From: Labilibaculum euxinicum
GTDB lineage: Bacteria; Bacteroidota; Bacteroidia; Bacteroidales; Marinifilaceae
Length of the DNA: 64,000 bases
Direction: 5' to 3'
NCBI RefSeq assembly: GCF_009795715.1
Contig: NZ_WTCR01000007.1
Location: 62,001-126,000 of the forward strand
The notes beneath the pieces were generated by a model. It saw only the letters and a list, made by a program, of their open reading frames with translations. It was not told where the DNA came from and did no database searches. The position numbers and the translations under genes were made by a program. Positions 38,853-49,536 of this stretch are shown here, one piece after another; position 1 is the first letter of the stretch; each line of letters begins with the position of its first letter.

Positions 38853-39095
38853 TTAATATCCGATACCTGCCGCCATAATGTTGTTAGGATCGAAAGCATG
38901 GCAAGGCGTTACACCGTGTACCATATCACATTTCGGACAATGTCCTTCGAATTCTTCCATTGTGAAGGTTTCTCTACAGCCATGGCATTCTATATCCAAT
39001 GGCATTGGCATTAATTGCTGAGCAAACCCCATCATTCTTACTTTATCAACTACTTGTTGTCCGTTCTCGAAACTTCCTGCGCATCCGTCATGCAT
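38853..39095 (-). CDS. Small zinc-ribbon protein of the DUF1858/GTPase cluster
   Basis: The 80-residue protein has two CxxC pairs, CHGC (37-40) and CPKC (53-56), as in the zinc ribbon of HypA-type metallochaperones, plus an N-terminal HDGC (H2, C5) and a C-terminal TPCH. The N-terminal His-Asp is reminiscent of HypA's nickel-binding MHE start, but the protein is shorter than HypA (about 115). It lies 160 bases downstream of the ABC ATPase on the same strand and is probably the fourth gene of that cluster. A role as metal or cofactor carrier is inferred. Confidence 0.65.
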   Translation of the reverse strand: MHDGCAGSFENGQQVVDKVRMMGFAQQLMPMPLDIECHGCRETFTMEEFEGHCPKCDMVHGVTPCHAFDPNNIMAAGIGY

Positions 39096-39255
39096 AATTT
39101 TATCCTCCTGTTTTTACAGATATGAAATTGGAGAAACGAATTCCCCAGTTTCAATATCCTATTTTATATTTTGATTCTTATTTCAAGAATTATCAGTAAA
39201 CGAAATGAATATTGTAAATCATCTCAAATCTAATCTCTAACTTCTCAAATCTCTT

Positions 39256-40284
39256 TTAAAATCCTATATCTTCTTTTTTAATGATTTCGCCGTTACGAAG
39301 TCGGGTTCTCATGTTTTGAACTACAGCATCCATACGCTCTAAATCAACCAATAGATTTCTCTCATCATCGCTGGTCTCAACCACTTTGTGAATTCCACCA
39401 TTCTTTATCACGATTCGCTTATCGCCCATTAAAGCCAACATCGGATCGTGAGTTGCCATCAGTACAATCTTTTCTTCGCCAATCAGCAAATCGAGTGCTT
39501 TTTTGCGGTCGATACCGGCATTCTCAATTTCATCAATCAAAATAATCGGCGACTTACTCAGAATGGCAGTATCAGCAATCATCAATGCTCTCGATTGTCC
39601 GCCACTCAAACTTGTAATAGGAGTGGTTAACTCAAACTTTTCTCCGGCAAGCTTATTTGCTTCTTCAATTATCTTGGCAATAAGACCTTCAACATCCTCA
39701 ACCAATCTACTTTGTGCATGTAATTCTAAAAACTCATAAACAGATAGATCCATTACAAAGTTCATATTCTGCGAAAGCTGTGCAACCAATTTATTTCCTG
39801 AACTTACCCGCCATTTTTTGTCTCCCATTTCTTCATTCACCAAAATGGTTCGTGAAGTCGGAGTATCATTTTGTGCTACCCATTCAATATCAGCAAGCAA
39901 TCTACTTTTACCCGATCCGGTTGGTCCAACAATACAAACAATCTCGCTTTTGCTGATCTTTAATTCTCCAAACTGCTCTGCTTCACCAGATTTATTGGTT
40001 CCGGGAAGAATGGTAATGCTATGAACTCCGTCATCTACATCTTCACCCAAAAACTCCAACATTTGAGAAATATAAATAGTCATCGAATTCAAAAGCTGAT
40101 CTCTATCAATGGCTCTGTTTTCAGCTTCTTCCTCATCATCTAAAAACTTCAGATAATCGATTAACTTTTCGTTGATCTGTCCATTAACCTGCAATGTATT
40201 TTCTTCGAAAAACCCCGGGAGAAATGGATATTGCTCGAATAAATCGGCAATTGTTTTTTGTTGTATATCTTGAACTGTGATCAT
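39256..40284 (-). CDS. Soluble ABC-type ATPase with N-terminal DUF1858-like domain
   Basis: Residues of about 1-50 (TIADLFEQYPFLPGFFEENT) resemble DUF1858. The ATPase part has Walker A GPTGSGKS (120-127), signature LSGGQ (226-230), Walker B IILIDEIE (247-254) and an H-loop histidine (H279). All nucleotide-hydrolysis elements are present, but there is no membrane domain and no permease gene nearby. The shared DUF1858-like start with the solute-binding-like protein of the same cluster suggests that the two bind each other or the same partner. A classical transporter is therefore unlikely; an energy-driven maturation or remodelling step is inferred. Confidence 0.82.
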   Translation of the reverse strand: MITVQDIQQKTIADLFEQYPFLPGFFEENTLQVNGQINEKLIDYLKFLDDEEEAENRAIDRDQLLNSMTIYISQMLEFLGEDVDDGVHSITILPGTNKSGEAEQFGELKISKSEIVCIVGPTGSGKSRLLADIEWVAQNDTPTSRTILVNEEMGDKKWRVSSGNKLVAQLSQNMNFVMDLSVYEFLELHAQSRLVEDVEGLIAKIIEEANKLAGEKFELTTPITSLSGGQSRALMIADTAILSKSPIILIDEIENAGIDRKKALDLLIGEEKIVLMATHDPMLALMGDKRIVIKNGGIHKVVETSDDERNLLVDLERMDAVVQNMRTRLRNGEIIKKEDIGF

Positions 40285-40384
40285 GTTTCTGCTTTTGTAA
40301 TTGTTATATCGCTTTCAACAAGCCTCTTCCCTTAAAAAGGGAGCAAGTCCTTATTTTGCTTTCGCATCTTCGAATCGATATCTT

Positions 40385-40424
40385 CCCTTTCAGGGGAAGT
40401 GCCGACAGGCGAAGGGGTGGACTC
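40385..40424 (+). repeat. Intergenic repeat element, copy 2
   Basis: CCCTTTCAGGGGAAGTGCC, then GACAGGCGAAGGGGTGG, resembles the element at 35774-35810 on the other strand. A short hairpin TCCCTTAAAAAGGGA at about 40329 precedes it. It separates the ATPase and GTPase genes. Confidence 0.6.
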
Positions 40425-40451
40425 AACTTGGCGCTTTCAGCTATTACTACT

Positions 40452-41159
40452 TTACTTTTCGCCCTTCTTGTCGCTCATATCAATCTTTCTCACATTACCC
40501 ATTTGGTAACTTTCTCCAATTCTGGTTTCGCCCAAACAGTATGAACAAAGTGCTGATGGCATTGAGAATCGTAATTTTTCGCCCACCAATGTCTTTATTT
40601 CAACTTTTTCATCATAAAGCAAAGTGCTTAATTCATAAGCTCCCTGACCCGTTAATCCATTTATGTGCATAATGCTTGCTCCAGGATTCACCTGATTTAC
40701 TCTCGATGCAAACACTTCTCTTTCAGCCTGTGATACAATATCTCCTTTTGTAATAATCACAATATCGGAACTCTTTAACATCGGACCAATTTTCTTTGGG
40801 GTGTTAATTCCACTTAAGTTATCGATAACACAAACAGCCGTAATACTTTTTACATAGGGCGAACAACGATTACACAATCCTGCACTTTCCGTGATCAGTA
40901 AATCGAGTCCTTCCTTAATTCCCCACTGAGTTACCTCTTCAATATTACTTACAAAATAATGATCCGGACAAAGTGAACCTGACAATCCCTTTTTCACCTT
41001 CACGCCAGCCTTTTCGTACAAAATATCATCATCTGTATATAGACAGTCAAATTTTACCACACCAACTTCTAATCCTCTCTTCTTTAACGAATCAATGGTC
41101 TTTAAAATCACCGCTGTTTTTCCTGATGAAGGAGGTCCTGAAACTGTAACTAAGTTCAT
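40452..41159 (-). CDS. HypB/UreG-like P-loop GTPase
   Basis: The 235-residue protein has Walker A GPPSSGKT (8-15), a Walker B-like LLITESAGLCNRC (88-99) that parallels HypB's ENVGNLVCP, and TKGD (137-140) in the guanine-specificity position. Cysteines at 64, 96, 99, 205 and 208 make two CxxC pairs (CNRC, CSYC) suited to binding a metal. This places it with the SIMIBI metal-insertion GTPases (HypB, UreG, CooC). No hydrogenase, urease or CO dehydrogenase gene lies in the window, so its target enzyme is unknown. Confidence 0.82.
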   Translation of the reverse strand: MNLVTVSGPPSSGKTAVILKTIDSLKKRGLEVGVVKFDCLYTDDDILYEKAGVKVKKGLSGSLCPDHYFVSNIEEVTQWGIKEGLDLLITESAGLCNRCSPYVKSITAVCVIDNLSGINTPKKIGPMLKSSDIVIITKGDIVSQAEREVFASRVNQVNPGASIMHINGLTGQGAYELSTLLYDEKVEIKTLVGEKLRFSMPSALCSYCLGETRIGESYQMGNVRKIDMSDKKGEK

Positions 41160-41194
41160 ATCTGATTATTTTAAAATCTGCAATTTTAGTAATA

Positions 41195-42481
41195 CTACTT
41201 CTGAGGCATATAATTCAACGGTCCCAAATTAGCAAACGATTCATCCTGAATGGACTTATTAAAAATGCGCTCACATTTCTTTATTAAAGCACCAATATCG
41301 TTACTGTTAATGTAATCCCAACCCAACCACATAAATTTATTCTCTGCAGGTAATCGGTTATCCACTTCAGGATTAATACTTGGAAACAAACCTTGATGTG
41401 AAAGAATCTCTCCTACCGCTTTCGAGGCAAAGAAATCAATAACAGGCTGCGTTTTCTCCAATTTATCTTTCTTGGTCAACATGAAAATAGGACTGATAAT
41501 AGCTCCGTCTTCAGGCCAAACAGCAACCATTGGACCGCCAACTTTCACCATTTTGGTAAAGAAGTAAGGCATAATTGTAATAGCTGGTCGTACGTTCTTT
41601 TTGGTATGAGACTTCACCATTTGTGCAGGATGCATACTCTCCAATAAACAAGCTCCTAAGCCTCTTACTCCTTCTTCGCCGTATGTCTTGTAAATGTGTA
41701 GCAACATCGAATTGAATAAATCAAAATCGCTGATTGGCAAACTTACACTGCGCTTAAATTCCGGCTTAAAAATATCAGCCCATGTGCGTGGAATCGGACG
41801 ATCTCCTAATTCTGCGGTATTTACCAAAAAAACAGCAGGTACTACACCAATCATTGAATAATGTCCTTCCGGATCTTGCAAACAAATCTCATCATTGTCA
41901 AAATCCTTGTTCAAACGCTTAAAACCAGTACTGTCTTTAAAAACACCCTGCTTCTTAAATTTCCCCATCAATTTATCATCGAAGAATAAATCAAAACCTG
42001 CTGAAATAAAAATATCTGCTAAATTATCTGTGTTCTCCTGATTGATTACATCATCGATTAACCAATCCAATCCCATCGAAGCAGCTTTCAAGTCATAAAT
42101 AATCTCATTTTCATGATTCTTTTCATATTCATCAATAAAAGCATCAATACCTTCAACCAAAGGAATACGAACCGGACAAGGCAACAACCCTTGCACATGA
42201 ATAGAATCTGATTTTTGTACTTTGCTATTTTGATTCAAATCACCATCCACCGAATTTCTATTTCCATCAATTCCTTCTATTAATAAGGTAGAAAAAGTAT
42301 CCACATTTAATTTTTTCATCTTCAAAGCCAATTCCAAAGAAAGAGATTTACCAAAGACCGCTCTCTTCGCCTCATCCTCCAATTGCTTGAATCCATTTGA
42401 AACAAAAATTTTAATTGTTTCAGGGTACTTAGTACAAATATCAAGCAAACTATCCGTGGTCTTAAAATATTGATTCTTCAT
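41195..42481 (-). CDS. Cytoplasmic solute-binding-like protein with N-terminal DUF1858-like domain
   Basis: From the ATG at 42481 the protein has about 428 residues. The first ~65 (SLLDICTKYPETIKIFVSNGF) resemble DUF1858; the remainder (IPLVEGIDAFIDEYEK, IPRTWADIFKPEFKRSVSLP, GGPMVAVWPEDGAIISPIF) is a type 2 periplasmic-binding fold of the iron/thiamine group. It has no signal peptide or lipobox, so it should stay in the cytoplasm, which is odd for this fold. A TTG-free upstream extension to 42532 (MDRLYICIKKSFKFCFE) is short, basic and not a convincing signal. It is the first gene of the cluster; the 216-base gap to the divergent T9SS gene carries both promoters. Confidence 0.78.
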   Translation of the reverse strand: MKNQYFKTTDSLLDICTKYPETIKIFVSNGFKQLEDEAKRAVFGKSLSLELALKMKKLNVDTFSTLLIEGIDGNRNSVDGDLNQNSKVQKSDSIHVQGLLPCPVRIPLVEGIDAFIDEYEKNHENEIIYDLKAASMGLDWLIDDVINQENTDNLADIFISAGFDLFFDDKLMGKFKKQGVFKDSTGFKRLNKDFDNDEICLQDPEGHYSMIGVVPAVFLVNTAELGDRPIPRTWADIFKPEFKRSVSLPISDFDLFNSMLLHIYKTYGEEGVRGLGACLLESMHPAQMVKSHTKKNVRPAITIMPYFFTKMVKVGGPMVAVWPEDGAIISPIFMLTKKDKLEKTQPVIDFFASKAVGEILSHQGLFPSINPEVDNRLPAENKFMWLGWDYINSNDIGALIKKCERIFNKSIQDESFANLGPLNYMPQK

Positions 42482-42748
42482 TTCGAAACAGAATTTAAAT
42501 GATTTCTTGATACAAATGTATAACCGATCCATTCAGAAAACTGTAACCGATGTTACACATCTAAAAAATAGATGCCGAAAAACAGAACAAAAAATGACAT
42601 CTAAACGTAAAATACGTGACGAAACGATTTGTAAAAATGACTAACGGCTTATTTTTACTGACTAAAATTAGCCTCTTGACTATTTTAGACTATATTTACA
42701 TCAGTCAAAATTGATTCTTTTAAGTTCTAATCCCATAAAAAAAAGAAG

Positions 42749-47466: not shown

Positions 47467-48138
47467 ATGCTATTTCAACAACTATCACAATCTCCCGTTT
47501 TCAGAGGAATTTCTCCTGACGAGATGGAAAATTTGCTGATCGACTCACAGTATCAGATTAAGAAATTTTCGAAAGGTGACATGCTTGCCTTTCGGGAAGA
47601 TAAATGTGAAAATCTGATGATTGTTTTAAAAGGCAGTGTGAAAGGCGAAATGCTCGATCCATCAGGAAAAAGCATTAAGATTGAGGATATTATGGCTCCC
47701 TATCCTATTGCATCCGCATTTTTATTCGGACAGAGAAATCAGTTCCCGGTAAACGTAACAGCAAATGAAGAAGTGGAAGTTTTCTACCTGTCCAAAAACT
47801 CAGTAATTGAAATGTTTCAAAAAAATAAGGTATTTCTGACCAATTACTTAAATTCTATATCGAATAGAAGTCAGTTTTTAGCCAACAAACTGATGTTTTT
47901 AAATTTTAAAACGATAAAAGGAAAGTTAGCAAACTACCTTTTAAAACTGGCAGCCCCCGATAAAACTGAAATTACTTTACCAAAATCTCAAGCAGAAATG
48001 GCTCAGTTTTTTGGCGTTACACGTCCTTCTTTTGCCAGAAGTTTAAAAGAAATGGAACAGGAAGGCTTAATTGAAACCAACAGAAGAGAAATAAAAATCC
48101 TAAATAAGCAACAACTCATCAGACTTTTACAGCAATAG
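47467..48138 (+). CDS. Crp/Fnr family transcriptional regulator
   Basis: The 223-residue protein has an N-terminal cyclic nucleotide-binding-like fold (FSKGDMLAFREDKCENLMIVLKGSVKGE) and a C-terminal winged helix (KSQAEMAQFFGVTRPSFARSLKEMEQEGLI). It lacks the cysteine cluster that binds iron-sulfur in FNR; only one cysteine (about 53) is present. The next gene, 198 bases on, encodes a flavodiiron protein whose leader has an inverted repeat; regulation of that gene in response to oxygen or nitric oxide stress is plausible but inferred. Confidence 0.93.
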   Translation: MLFQQLSQSPVFRGISPDEMENLLIDSQYQIKKFSKGDMLAFREDKCENLMIVLKGSVKGEMLDPSGKSIKIEDIMAPYPIASAFLFGQRNQFPVNVTANEEVEVFYLSKNSVIEMFQKNKVFLTNYLNSISNRSQFLANKLMFLNFKTIKGKLANYLLKLAAPDKTEITLPKSQAEMAQFFGVTRPSFARSLKEMEQEGLIETNRREIKILNKQQLIRLLQQ

Positions 48139-48336: not shown

Positions 48337-49536
48337 ATGCACAATAGAAACAACATTACTGACAAAATTTTCTGGGTAGGAACAAATGACCGACGCACTC
48401 ATTTATTTGAAAACTACTGGCCGTTGCCAAAAGGTGTAGCTTACAACTCGTATGTTATTGTTGATGAAAAAACAGCCATTGTAGATACTGTTGAAAAAGG
48501 TACTATGGATGAATATTTGGACAACATTACTGAGGTATTGGATGGTCGAAAAGCAGATTATTTAATCATTAACCATATGGAACCTGATCATTCAGGCTCT
48601 ATCCGTTCTTTGGTTGAACGTTATCCTGAAATGAAAATAGTAGGAAACAAAAAGACATTTCCGATGTTGGAGCGTTTCTATGGAATCAAAGAAAATATTT
48701 TTGAAGTTCAGGAAGGTGATCAAATTGACTTGGGAGAACACAAATTAAACTTCTATATGGTTCCGATGCTGCATTGGCCGGAAACCATGGTTACTTTTGA
48801 AACCACACAAGGAATTTTATTTTCGGGAGATGCTTTTGGTGCTTTCGGAACTTTGGATGGTGGTATTTTCGATGATGAATTGGATTTGGATTATTTGGAT
48901 GAAGAAATCAGCCGTTACTATTCCAATATTGTTGGAAAGTATGGTCGTCCAACTCAAAATGCATTGAAGAAATTAGATGGATTGGAGATCAAAATGATTT
49001 GTGCAACCCACGGACCAATTTGGAGAAGTCATGTAGCTGATATTATTGCCAAATACGACAAGTGGAGTCAGTATAAAACCGATGCAGGTTGCGTTATTGT
49101 ATATTCTTCGATGTACGGAAATACAGAGAAAATGGCTGATAATATTGCCCGCCAATTGGTTAAAAAAGGAATTAAGAAAGTTCGTATTCACGATTCTTCA
49201 AAAACACATCCATCTTATATTATCAACGATATTTTTAAATACCGTGGTGTAATTTTAGGTTCTTGTGCTTATAATGGTGATGTTTTCCCAACCATGGAAA
49301 CCCTGATTAATGAATTGGAGCACATGGCTATTAAAGATCACGTTTTAGGCGTATTCGGTTCCAAATCCTGGGGCGGTGGCGGCTTAAAACGCTTGAACAA
49401 ATTTGCCGAAGAAATTAAGTGGGAAACTATTGAAGCAACACCTGAAGCTCTTTGCGCTCCTAACAGCGAAGATTTCGATTTGTGCGAAGCTTTGGCTGAA
49501 GGAATGGCAAGCCGTTTAAAAGAACTTTACAAATAG
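48337..49536 (+). CDS. Flavodiiron protein (FprA, A-type flavoprotein)
   Basis: The 399-residue protein has a complete di-iron site: H80, E82, D84, H85 (HMEPDH), H146, D165 and H225, in a metallo-beta-lactamase fold. A flavodoxin domain follows from about 253 (SSMYGNTEKMA). This two-domain form reduces oxygen to water or nitric oxide to nitrous oxide with electrons from rubredoxin or a similar carrier, protecting anaerobes. It is preceded by a Crp/Fnr gene and ends at a strong terminator. Confidence 0.96.
   Translation: MHNRNNITDKIFWVGTNDRRTHLFENYWPLPKGVAYNSYVIVDEKTAIVDTVEKGTMDEYLDNITEVLDGRKADYLIINHMEPDHSGSIRSLVERYPEMKIVGNKKTFPMLERFYGIKENIFEVQEGDQIDLGEHKLNFYMVPMLHWPETMVTFETTQGILFSGDAFGAFGTLDGGIFDDELDLDYLDEEISRYYSNIVGKYGRPTQNALKKLDGLEIKMICATHGPIWRSHVADIIAKYDKWSQYKTDAGCVIVYSSMYGNTEKMADNIARQLVKKGIKKVRIHDSSKTHPSYIINDIFKYRGVILGSCAYNGDVFPTMETLINELEHMAIKDHVLGVFGSKSWGGGGLKRLNKFAEEIKWETIEATPEALCAPNSEDFDLCEALAEGMASRLKELYK

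Follow-up and report, generated by a model that had tools for sequence, protein, structure and literature searches.

The 64,000-nucleotide stretch of the Labilibaculum euxinicum genome analyzed here (contig NZ_WTCR01000007.1, positions 62,001 to 126,000; the window) carries a four-gene cluster that very probably shares a regulatory switch with hcp, the gene of the hybrid cluster protein (Hcp), and belongs to the anaerobic nitric oxide (NO) response of its lineage. Hcp is a central NO defense of anaerobes. Our reading, to which we give a probability of about 0.5 on sequence evidence, is that the cluster would form an HcpR2-controlled metal-delivery machine without a membrane part, acting in that response with Hcp as its main client. 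The likely target, Hcp, and the likely regulator type, HcpR2, are new relative to a first-pass annotation of the same genes, whose account of four same-strand genes, with their coordinates and domains, was confirmed. The cluster lies at 38853-42481, entirely on the minus strand, in the order solute-binding-fold protein (SBP), GTPase, ABC ATPase and zinc protein:

41195..42481, minus strand: SBP, 428 aa, with DUF1858 and SBP_bac_6 domains (Pfam); it opens the cluster
40452..41159, minus strand: HypB/UreG-like SIMIBI GTPase, 235 aa (Pfam/NCBIfam)
39256..40284, minus strand: soluble ABC ATPase, 342 aa, with a DUF1858-like helical N-terminal domain (Pfam, hhalign, structure model)
38853..39095, minus strand: HypA-like zinc-ribbon protein, 80 residues, with two CxxC pairs (Pfam match below cut-off, tblastn)
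42542..42557, no strand assigned: HcpR2-type palindrome TGTAAC-CGAT-GTTACA, 60 bp 5′ of the SBP start codon

A regulatory site links the cluster to hcp. The site preceding the SBP gene (42542-42557) reads TGTAACCGATGTTACA, and its palindrome, TGTAAC-N4-GTTACA, contains the published HcpR2 motif GTAACnnnnGTTAC, which is thus found upstream of the cluster. This motif was predicted from hcp upstream regions of anaerobes (Rodionov 2005, PMC1274295); the accessible parts of that paper associate it with a regulator that has Pro where CRP has Glu181, give a regulon of hcp only in most Bacteroides, P. gingivalis, Fusobacterium, Treponema and Thermotogales, and hold no mention of the four-gene cluster. 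The 5.05-Mb genome contains exactly two copies of TGTAACN4GTTACA, one before the SBP gene and the other on a different contig, ~135 bp ahead of hcp; ten further copies have one mismatch, nine of them inside open reading frames (ORFs). A reversed control pattern gave 34 matches with up to one mismatch in the same genome against 12 for the motif, so palindromes of such make-up are not rare and the weight rests on both exact copies standing at promoters.

The site recurs in relatives. A profile search of genome contigs with the GTPase alignment returned 523 relatives, of which we kept the best 80 loci (GTPase identity at least 79%), so that closer relatives are over-represented. Across these loci (1.233 Mb), 20/20 exact and 12/16 one-mismatch sites lie directly before the SBP gene, hcp or the first gene of the operon (32/36 with up to one mismatch); one locus (L125), whose exact palindrome does not precede the SBP gene, was left out of the counts. 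The shuffle null for a site with up to one mismatch is 1.1% in 420 bp. The exact core also stands upstream of hcp in 11/11 additional genomes that carry the SBP and belong to the same family. Relatives without the SBP yielded eight hcp upstream regions from seven genomes (7/10 of the Hcp-bearing ones of this kind), and one of these regions has it. Six other genomes have the exact core site at the SBP gene in 6/6 cases and a separate site at hcp in 4/6; in a fifth, G326, hcp follows the cluster. Separately, an exact HcpR2-core site lies 47 bp before a small cupin-like gene (L189:1501, contig C16 of genome G311).

Cluster and hcp are also linked by position and by co-occurrence. We found hcp in the fetched flanks of 24/80 loci, all among the 62 loci from outside Marinifilaceae, where it is the commonest noncore neighbor (24/62, against 11 for Crp, the next); this neighbor family was named from sequence, and genes belonging to it also match TIGR01703 (for example, in G301 and G326). 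In many Bacillota hcp is the next same-strand gene downstream of the cluster. Some contigs stop near the cluster, so that an hcp missing from the flanks is partly missing sequence, and counts of the zinc protein are affected likewise. Mapped on a quick tree of 79 loci, linkage to hcp changes state at least 11 times, which argues that it is not a single inherited accident, with contig ends adding noise.

Outside Marinifilaceae, where 50 of the 62 loci were taken for this purpose and 49 searched, 43/49 of the cluster genomes encode Hcp (14/14 of those not titled metagenome-assembled genomes, or MAGs, and 29/35 MAGs). Among 291 Clostridia genomes, Hcp scored over its cut-off in 15/15 with the GTPase (threshold E 1e-30 or better) and in 122/276 without it (P = 8e-6 Fisher's exact test, a statistic that ignores kinship); removal of three genomes with paralogue-type GTPases only (G424, G446 and G511) and of the center genome, G301, left 11/11 (P = 2e-4). 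Among 40 relatives, Hcp is present in 12/13 SBP-bearing genomes and in 10/27 others, and the sole SBP-bearing genome that lacks it is 63% complete. A sample of class Bacteroidia, with one GTPase-bearing genome (the source) and five Hcp genomes of 247, was uninformative.

The gene order, which had been expected to be conserved in relatives, is: SBP, GTPase and ABC ATPase genes follow one another on a single strand within 4 kb in 79/80 loci, a frequency we judge far beyond chance, and the exception (L046) lies on a contig that begins 224 bp before the GTPase gene. By tblastn the SBP was found in 79 loci, the GTPase in 80 (its family being the search query), the ABC ATPase in 80 (identity at least 51% in all) and the zinc protein in 63; a neighbor family (c11) consisted of antisense ORFs of the zinc protein, and the zinc-protein counts are therefore taken from tblastn. 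By record titles the loci come from Bacteroidota, Spirochaetota, Bacillota, Fusobacteriota, Acidobacteriota, Thermodesulfobacteriota and Campylobacterota, plus one Aminicenantes MAG; the sole Campylobacterota locus, on a MAG contig, falls next to a Fusobacteriaceae MAG and may reflect a binning error. The GTPase of the window is 96–100% identical to its seven best named records, five of them Labilibaculum. The GTPase-ABC spacer (40285-40451) is 167 bp long here, while some relatives have 29–40 bp or overlapping genes; it contains CTTCCC/GGGAAG pieces in inverted orientation and resembles an insertion, with only one copy found in the window.

No membrane gene lies inside the cluster, and no permease recurs beside it. 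Among 77 scorable loci, 57 lack a same-strand protein with at least four transmembrane segments within 3–4 genes, and such neighbors in the remaining 20 are a mixture of no single kind. The absence of a permease, as claimed from the window, thus holds for clusters of this type; paralogous GTPase-ABC modules do adjoin FecCD-type permeases.

The SBP is predicted to be cytosolic. We place its start at the ATG at 42481; the ORF is readable from 42532, and the shorter form is favored because three relatives show in-frame stops in the matched stretch (one of the three matches only from residue 12). The SBP scores over the Pfam cut-off for DUF1858 (PF08984, E 1.5e-15, 57.5 bits against 32.2) and matches SBP_bac_6 (E 4.7e-85). 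The earlier claim that it lacks a signal peptide stands: only 3/81 aligned SBPs exceed a hydropathy of 1.6 in the first 60 residues, all through upstream ORF extensions, compared with 2.2–2.9 for five FecB-like controls. Its structure model has a pLDDT (predicted local distance difference test) of 87.6, and the best Foldseek matches are ferric-binding proteins, with pyridoxal phosphate-, sugar-phosphate- and polyamine-binding proteins also in the top 50. Alignment rows were entered only where an ORF spans the tblastn match, so rows are fewer than loci, and they include the paralogues L012, L101 and L112-L118; in this alignment C102, H284, W322, D325 and W385 are conserved as candidate ligands. 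A "hybrid cluster protein-associated" model (TIGR03980) weakly matches 4/41 SBP homologues (best E 1.9e-4).

The ABC ATPase (Pfam E 2.4e-15) has intact motifs, with Walker A, LSGGQ, Walker B and H-loop residues conserved in at least 97% of 98 aligned rows. The statement that it begins, as the SBP does, with a DUF1858-like segment held for the SBP and in part for the ATPase: hhalign relates the two N-termini (93.4%, E 2.5e-7) and their models have a similar helix layout, but Pfam lists no DUF1858 at its cut-off on the ATPase of the window, and among ABC homologues 6/43 have DUF1858 matches (E up to 1, best 0.0053). No cysteine is conserved at 97% within SBP residues 1–90 of the alignment, which argues against the proposal that these domains bind a cluster; a docking role is possible. 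The ATPase model has a pLDDT of 86.1, and Foldseek placed SmsC among its matches, a match that is not specific. Fold matches of the SBP and ABC models were considered as pointers to a specific client and gave none.

The GTPase matches PF02492 (CobW/HypB/UreG) at E 9e-14 (51.9 bits against a cut-off of 20.7), has a classical P-loop Walker A, GPPSSGKT, and carries CNRC and CSYC motifs, with C39, C64, H67, C96, C99, C110, C205 and C208 conserved in at least 97% of 97 rows. The zinc protein matches the HypA zinc ribbon below cut-off (E 0.0014), and H2, C5, C37, C40, C53, C56 and C65 are conserved in its alignment; it begins with Met-His, a feature of HypA. The likeness of this pair to HypB and HypA, proposed previously, therefore extends to the domains and to the presence of conserved Cys/His residues but not to family membership: the GTPase falls short of the HypB cut-off (TIGR00073, 47.5 against 121.2 bits) and the zinc protein, which matches in the ribbon part only, of the HypA cut-offs (TIGR00100, 17.9 against 88.1 bits; PF01155, 19.1 against 28.9).

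Under our preferred reading, NO or nitrite would induce hcp and the cluster together through HcpR2. The cytosolic, ferric-binding-protein-like SBP would hold iron, either as such or in a small iron species. Docking of the SBP, the ABC ATPase and perhaps Hcp would fall to the DUF1858-like domains, and the HypB-like GTPase with the HypA-like zinc protein would hand on the metal. GTP and ATP hydrolysis would power either the loading of the Fe-S-O hybrid cluster or its repair. The scheme would have a counterpart in CooC and partner proteins, which serve the C-cluster of CO dehydrogenases (CODHs), enzymes related to Hcp. Delivery of metal to Hcp itself, judged from the genes, we consider about evenly balanced.

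Several results weigh against this reading. The FbpA-type tyrosine pair, which we take to be the iron ligands of ferric-binding FbpA, is not retained in the SBP (TYY of 1y4t aligns with PyF), and a mapping of the ferric ligands onto FbpA was dropped on this ground; C102, H284 and D325 are possible metal ligands instead. A 2-aminoethylphosphonate-binding model matches 31/41 SBPs (best E 3.4e-9), above TIGR03980, so the latter match does not fix the ligand; the PotD model also matches, in 21/41 (best E 1.7e-6). In the scan of the six other genomes, 14/24 core sites have other locations, and the reversed-pattern controls are similar in number (5, 6, 10, 2, 1 and 15), so the motif alone does not single out SBP and hcp there. 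A core site with up to one mismatch precedes the SBP gene in only 21/47 scorable regions outside Marinifilaceae, and in the Clostridia sample it was found at hcp in 3/14 GTPase-bearing genomes and at the SBP gene in 3/8, compared with 4/6 hcp regions of GTPase-less Clostridia. Several spirochaetes have an Rrf2-type gene immediately upstream of the SBP gene instead of the core site, which speaks against universality. Six of the 49 cluster genomes, all MAGs, have neither Hcp nor any Prismane protein; conversely, Hcp occurs in the 122/276 GTPase-less Clostridia noted above. E. coli has Hcp but does not belong to the four control genomes in which DUF1858 was found. Hcp therefore does not need the cluster in every case, and the cluster may be relevant only to a subset of Hcp proteins or only when NO causes damage. 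Co-regulation with hcp is thus strong in the source lineage and patchy in Clostridia.

Related modules occur in other metal-associated contexts. The source genome itself encodes a second set (L101:8610-10923, contig C3) with an ABC ATPase that lacks the DUF1858-like start, a GTPase (44% identical) and a PF04060 Fe-S protein. In a congener (L012:6804-16302) we found a TonB receptor, an SBP_bac_6 protein without a DUF1858 match, a periplasmic binding protein, FecCD, a FecE-like ATPase, SBP, GTPase, ABC and a helix-turn-helix protein that resembles the DNA-binding part of ModE by eye (Pfam gives only HTH_1, E 3e-4); this locus looks like a metal or oxyanion uptake-and-use island. Clostridia GTPase-ABC pairs adjoin FecBCD-like, methyltransferase and DUF364 genes. 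At L113:8612-11088 a GTPase-ABC pair lies beside a DUF4213/DUF364 putative heavy-metal-chelation protein. At L118:8112-16553, GTPase, ABC and an SBP_bac_6 protein with no obvious signal peptide by eye are followed by a NifH-like and two NifDK-like genes (Pfam) and FecB/FecCD/FecE-like genes (by eye), possibly a nitrogenase-like cofactor system with the same module. Because sister GTPase-ABC sets adjoin such varied metal-related genes, the pair, frequently joined by an SBP, resembles a general module for metal cofactors, of which the type in the window would be the NO/Hcp branch. More tentatively, the cluster may represent a new nucleoside triphosphate (NTP)-driven metallocofactor machine, in which a cytosolic binding-protein fold, a soluble ABC ATPase, DUF1858-like docking domains and a HypB/HypA-like pair build or repair the Hcp cluster, with sister GTPase-ABC modules (often with SBP) serving other metal cofactors of anaerobes, including NifHDK-like and Fec-linked ones.

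Two genes elsewhere in the window bear on this context:

47467..48138, plus strand: Crp/Fnr-family regulator, candidate HcpR2 (Pfam; R-P pair in the recognition helix)
48337..49536, plus strand: flavodiiron protein, FprA-like, context only (ODP beta-lactamase and flavodoxin domains, Pfam)

The R-P pair is shared with the best solved relative of the regulator, 1o5l (Crp family), which we take to be from T. maritima, and its Pro may correspond to the Glu181 position of CRP; this gene is a candidate for HcpR2 by sequence. The flavodiiron family, whose members we take to be NO/O2 reductases, occurs at 14/80 loci, 12 of them Marinifilaceae. Crp-type regulators occur at 23/80 loci, also with 12 in Marinifilaceae, and Rrf2-type regulators at 9/80, none in Marinifilaceae. 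In four Bacteroidales loci (L060, L077, L078 and L091) hcp lies upstream of the cluster, with cupin-like and patatin-like genes after it; three of these loci have hemerythrin-PAS, PepSY-like and NrfHA-like genes following the zinc-protein region (by eye; hemerythrin-PAS by Pfam on one protein tested). By eye, NitT/TauT-type ABC transporter-like genes lie near the cluster at L037, L042, L050, L053 and L087; such genes occur near some spirochaete clusters.

One alternative, which we regard as less probable, is that the cluster re-supplies many NO-damaged Fe-S and iron proteins, as RIC/ScdA does, and is merely co-regulated with Hcp. The six cluster genomes without Hcp would fit such general repair of iron centers, as would the ferric-binding-like fold of the SBP, a match of the ScdA model to 1/41 SBPs (E 0.0062) and the operons near hemerythrin-PAS, NrfHA-like and Rrf2-like genes; yet the exact site in the source genome marks the cluster and hcp only, hcp outranks Crp among noncore neighbors outside Marinifilaceae (24/62 vs 11), and Pfam finds no hemerythrin domain in the four proteins. 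Substrate capture or transport, with a small molecule as ligand of the SBP (polyamine, phosphonate, nitrosyl-iron or heme-like) and a permease encoded elsewhere, seems improbable to us. It draws on the SBP_bac_6 assignment, on the 2-aminoethylphosphonate-binding and PotD matches (31/41 and 21/41) and on the paralogous modules beside FecBCD importers; against it, none of the 81 aligned SBPs shows a signal peptide, no permease recurs at the Hcp-type cluster, the ABC ATPase has an additional domain at its N-terminus that resembles the one on the SBP, and the Fec-linked loci inspected by eye already have a separate FecE-like ATPase of their own. A signaling role, in which the proteins would sense metal or NO and adjust the HcpR response, the GTPase and ATPase serving as switches, is very improbable: Crp-type (23/80) and Rrf2-type (9/80) regulators do lie nearby, but the four proteins have no output domain by Pfam, and the HypA/HypB-like parts and conserved cysteines suggest metal handling.

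The cluster, found in loci assigned to seven phyla, is a named candidate for assembly of the Hcp hybrid cluster; it would widen the HcpR2 regulon past hcp, and it shows a binding protein and an ABC ATPase in use without a membrane part. In the accessible parts of the literature searched we found no dedicated assembly factor for the hybrid cluster and no description of the four-gene cluster, the latter not proving its absence from print. A link through clade B CODHs was dropped, since the ABC genes published near them are, in the accessible parts of the source, NitT/TauT transporters (PMC6344411), and no CODH search was made near the 80 loci.

The cluster resembles several known systems and differs from each. 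With nickel insertion by HypB/HypA and UreG it has in common a CobW/HypB/UreG SIMIBI GTPase with conserved Cys/His and a small CxxC-CxxC zinc protein, but it stays below both family cut-offs, is tied to Hcp/NO genes and also includes a binding protein and an ABC ATPase. With CooC/CooJ/CooT for [NiFe]-CODH it would share NTP-driven maturation, proposed here, of a related enzyme: the accessible parts of one source (PMC13056359) describe Hcp as a relative of CODH, and those of another (PMC9164220) give CooC a deviant Walker A with a signature lysine in second place, whereas the GTPase of the cluster has the classical motif. SufC/SmsC is likewise a soluble ABC ATPase tied to iron handling, but Pfam finds no SufB/D-like partner among the four proteins; in contrast to RIC/ScdA, they also lack the hemerythrin-like diiron domain. 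The ABC importers FbpABC, PotABCD and those for 2-aminoethylphosphonate share the SBP and ABC ATPase folds, whereas the cluster has neither an exported SBP nor a recurrent permease and bears DUF1858-like domains on both proteins. Finally, the HcpR/HcpR2 regulon has in common the exact GTAACnnnnGTTAC site at the cluster and at hcp, and while published HcpR2 regulons consist mostly of hcp alone, here the regulon would also include the four-gene cluster.

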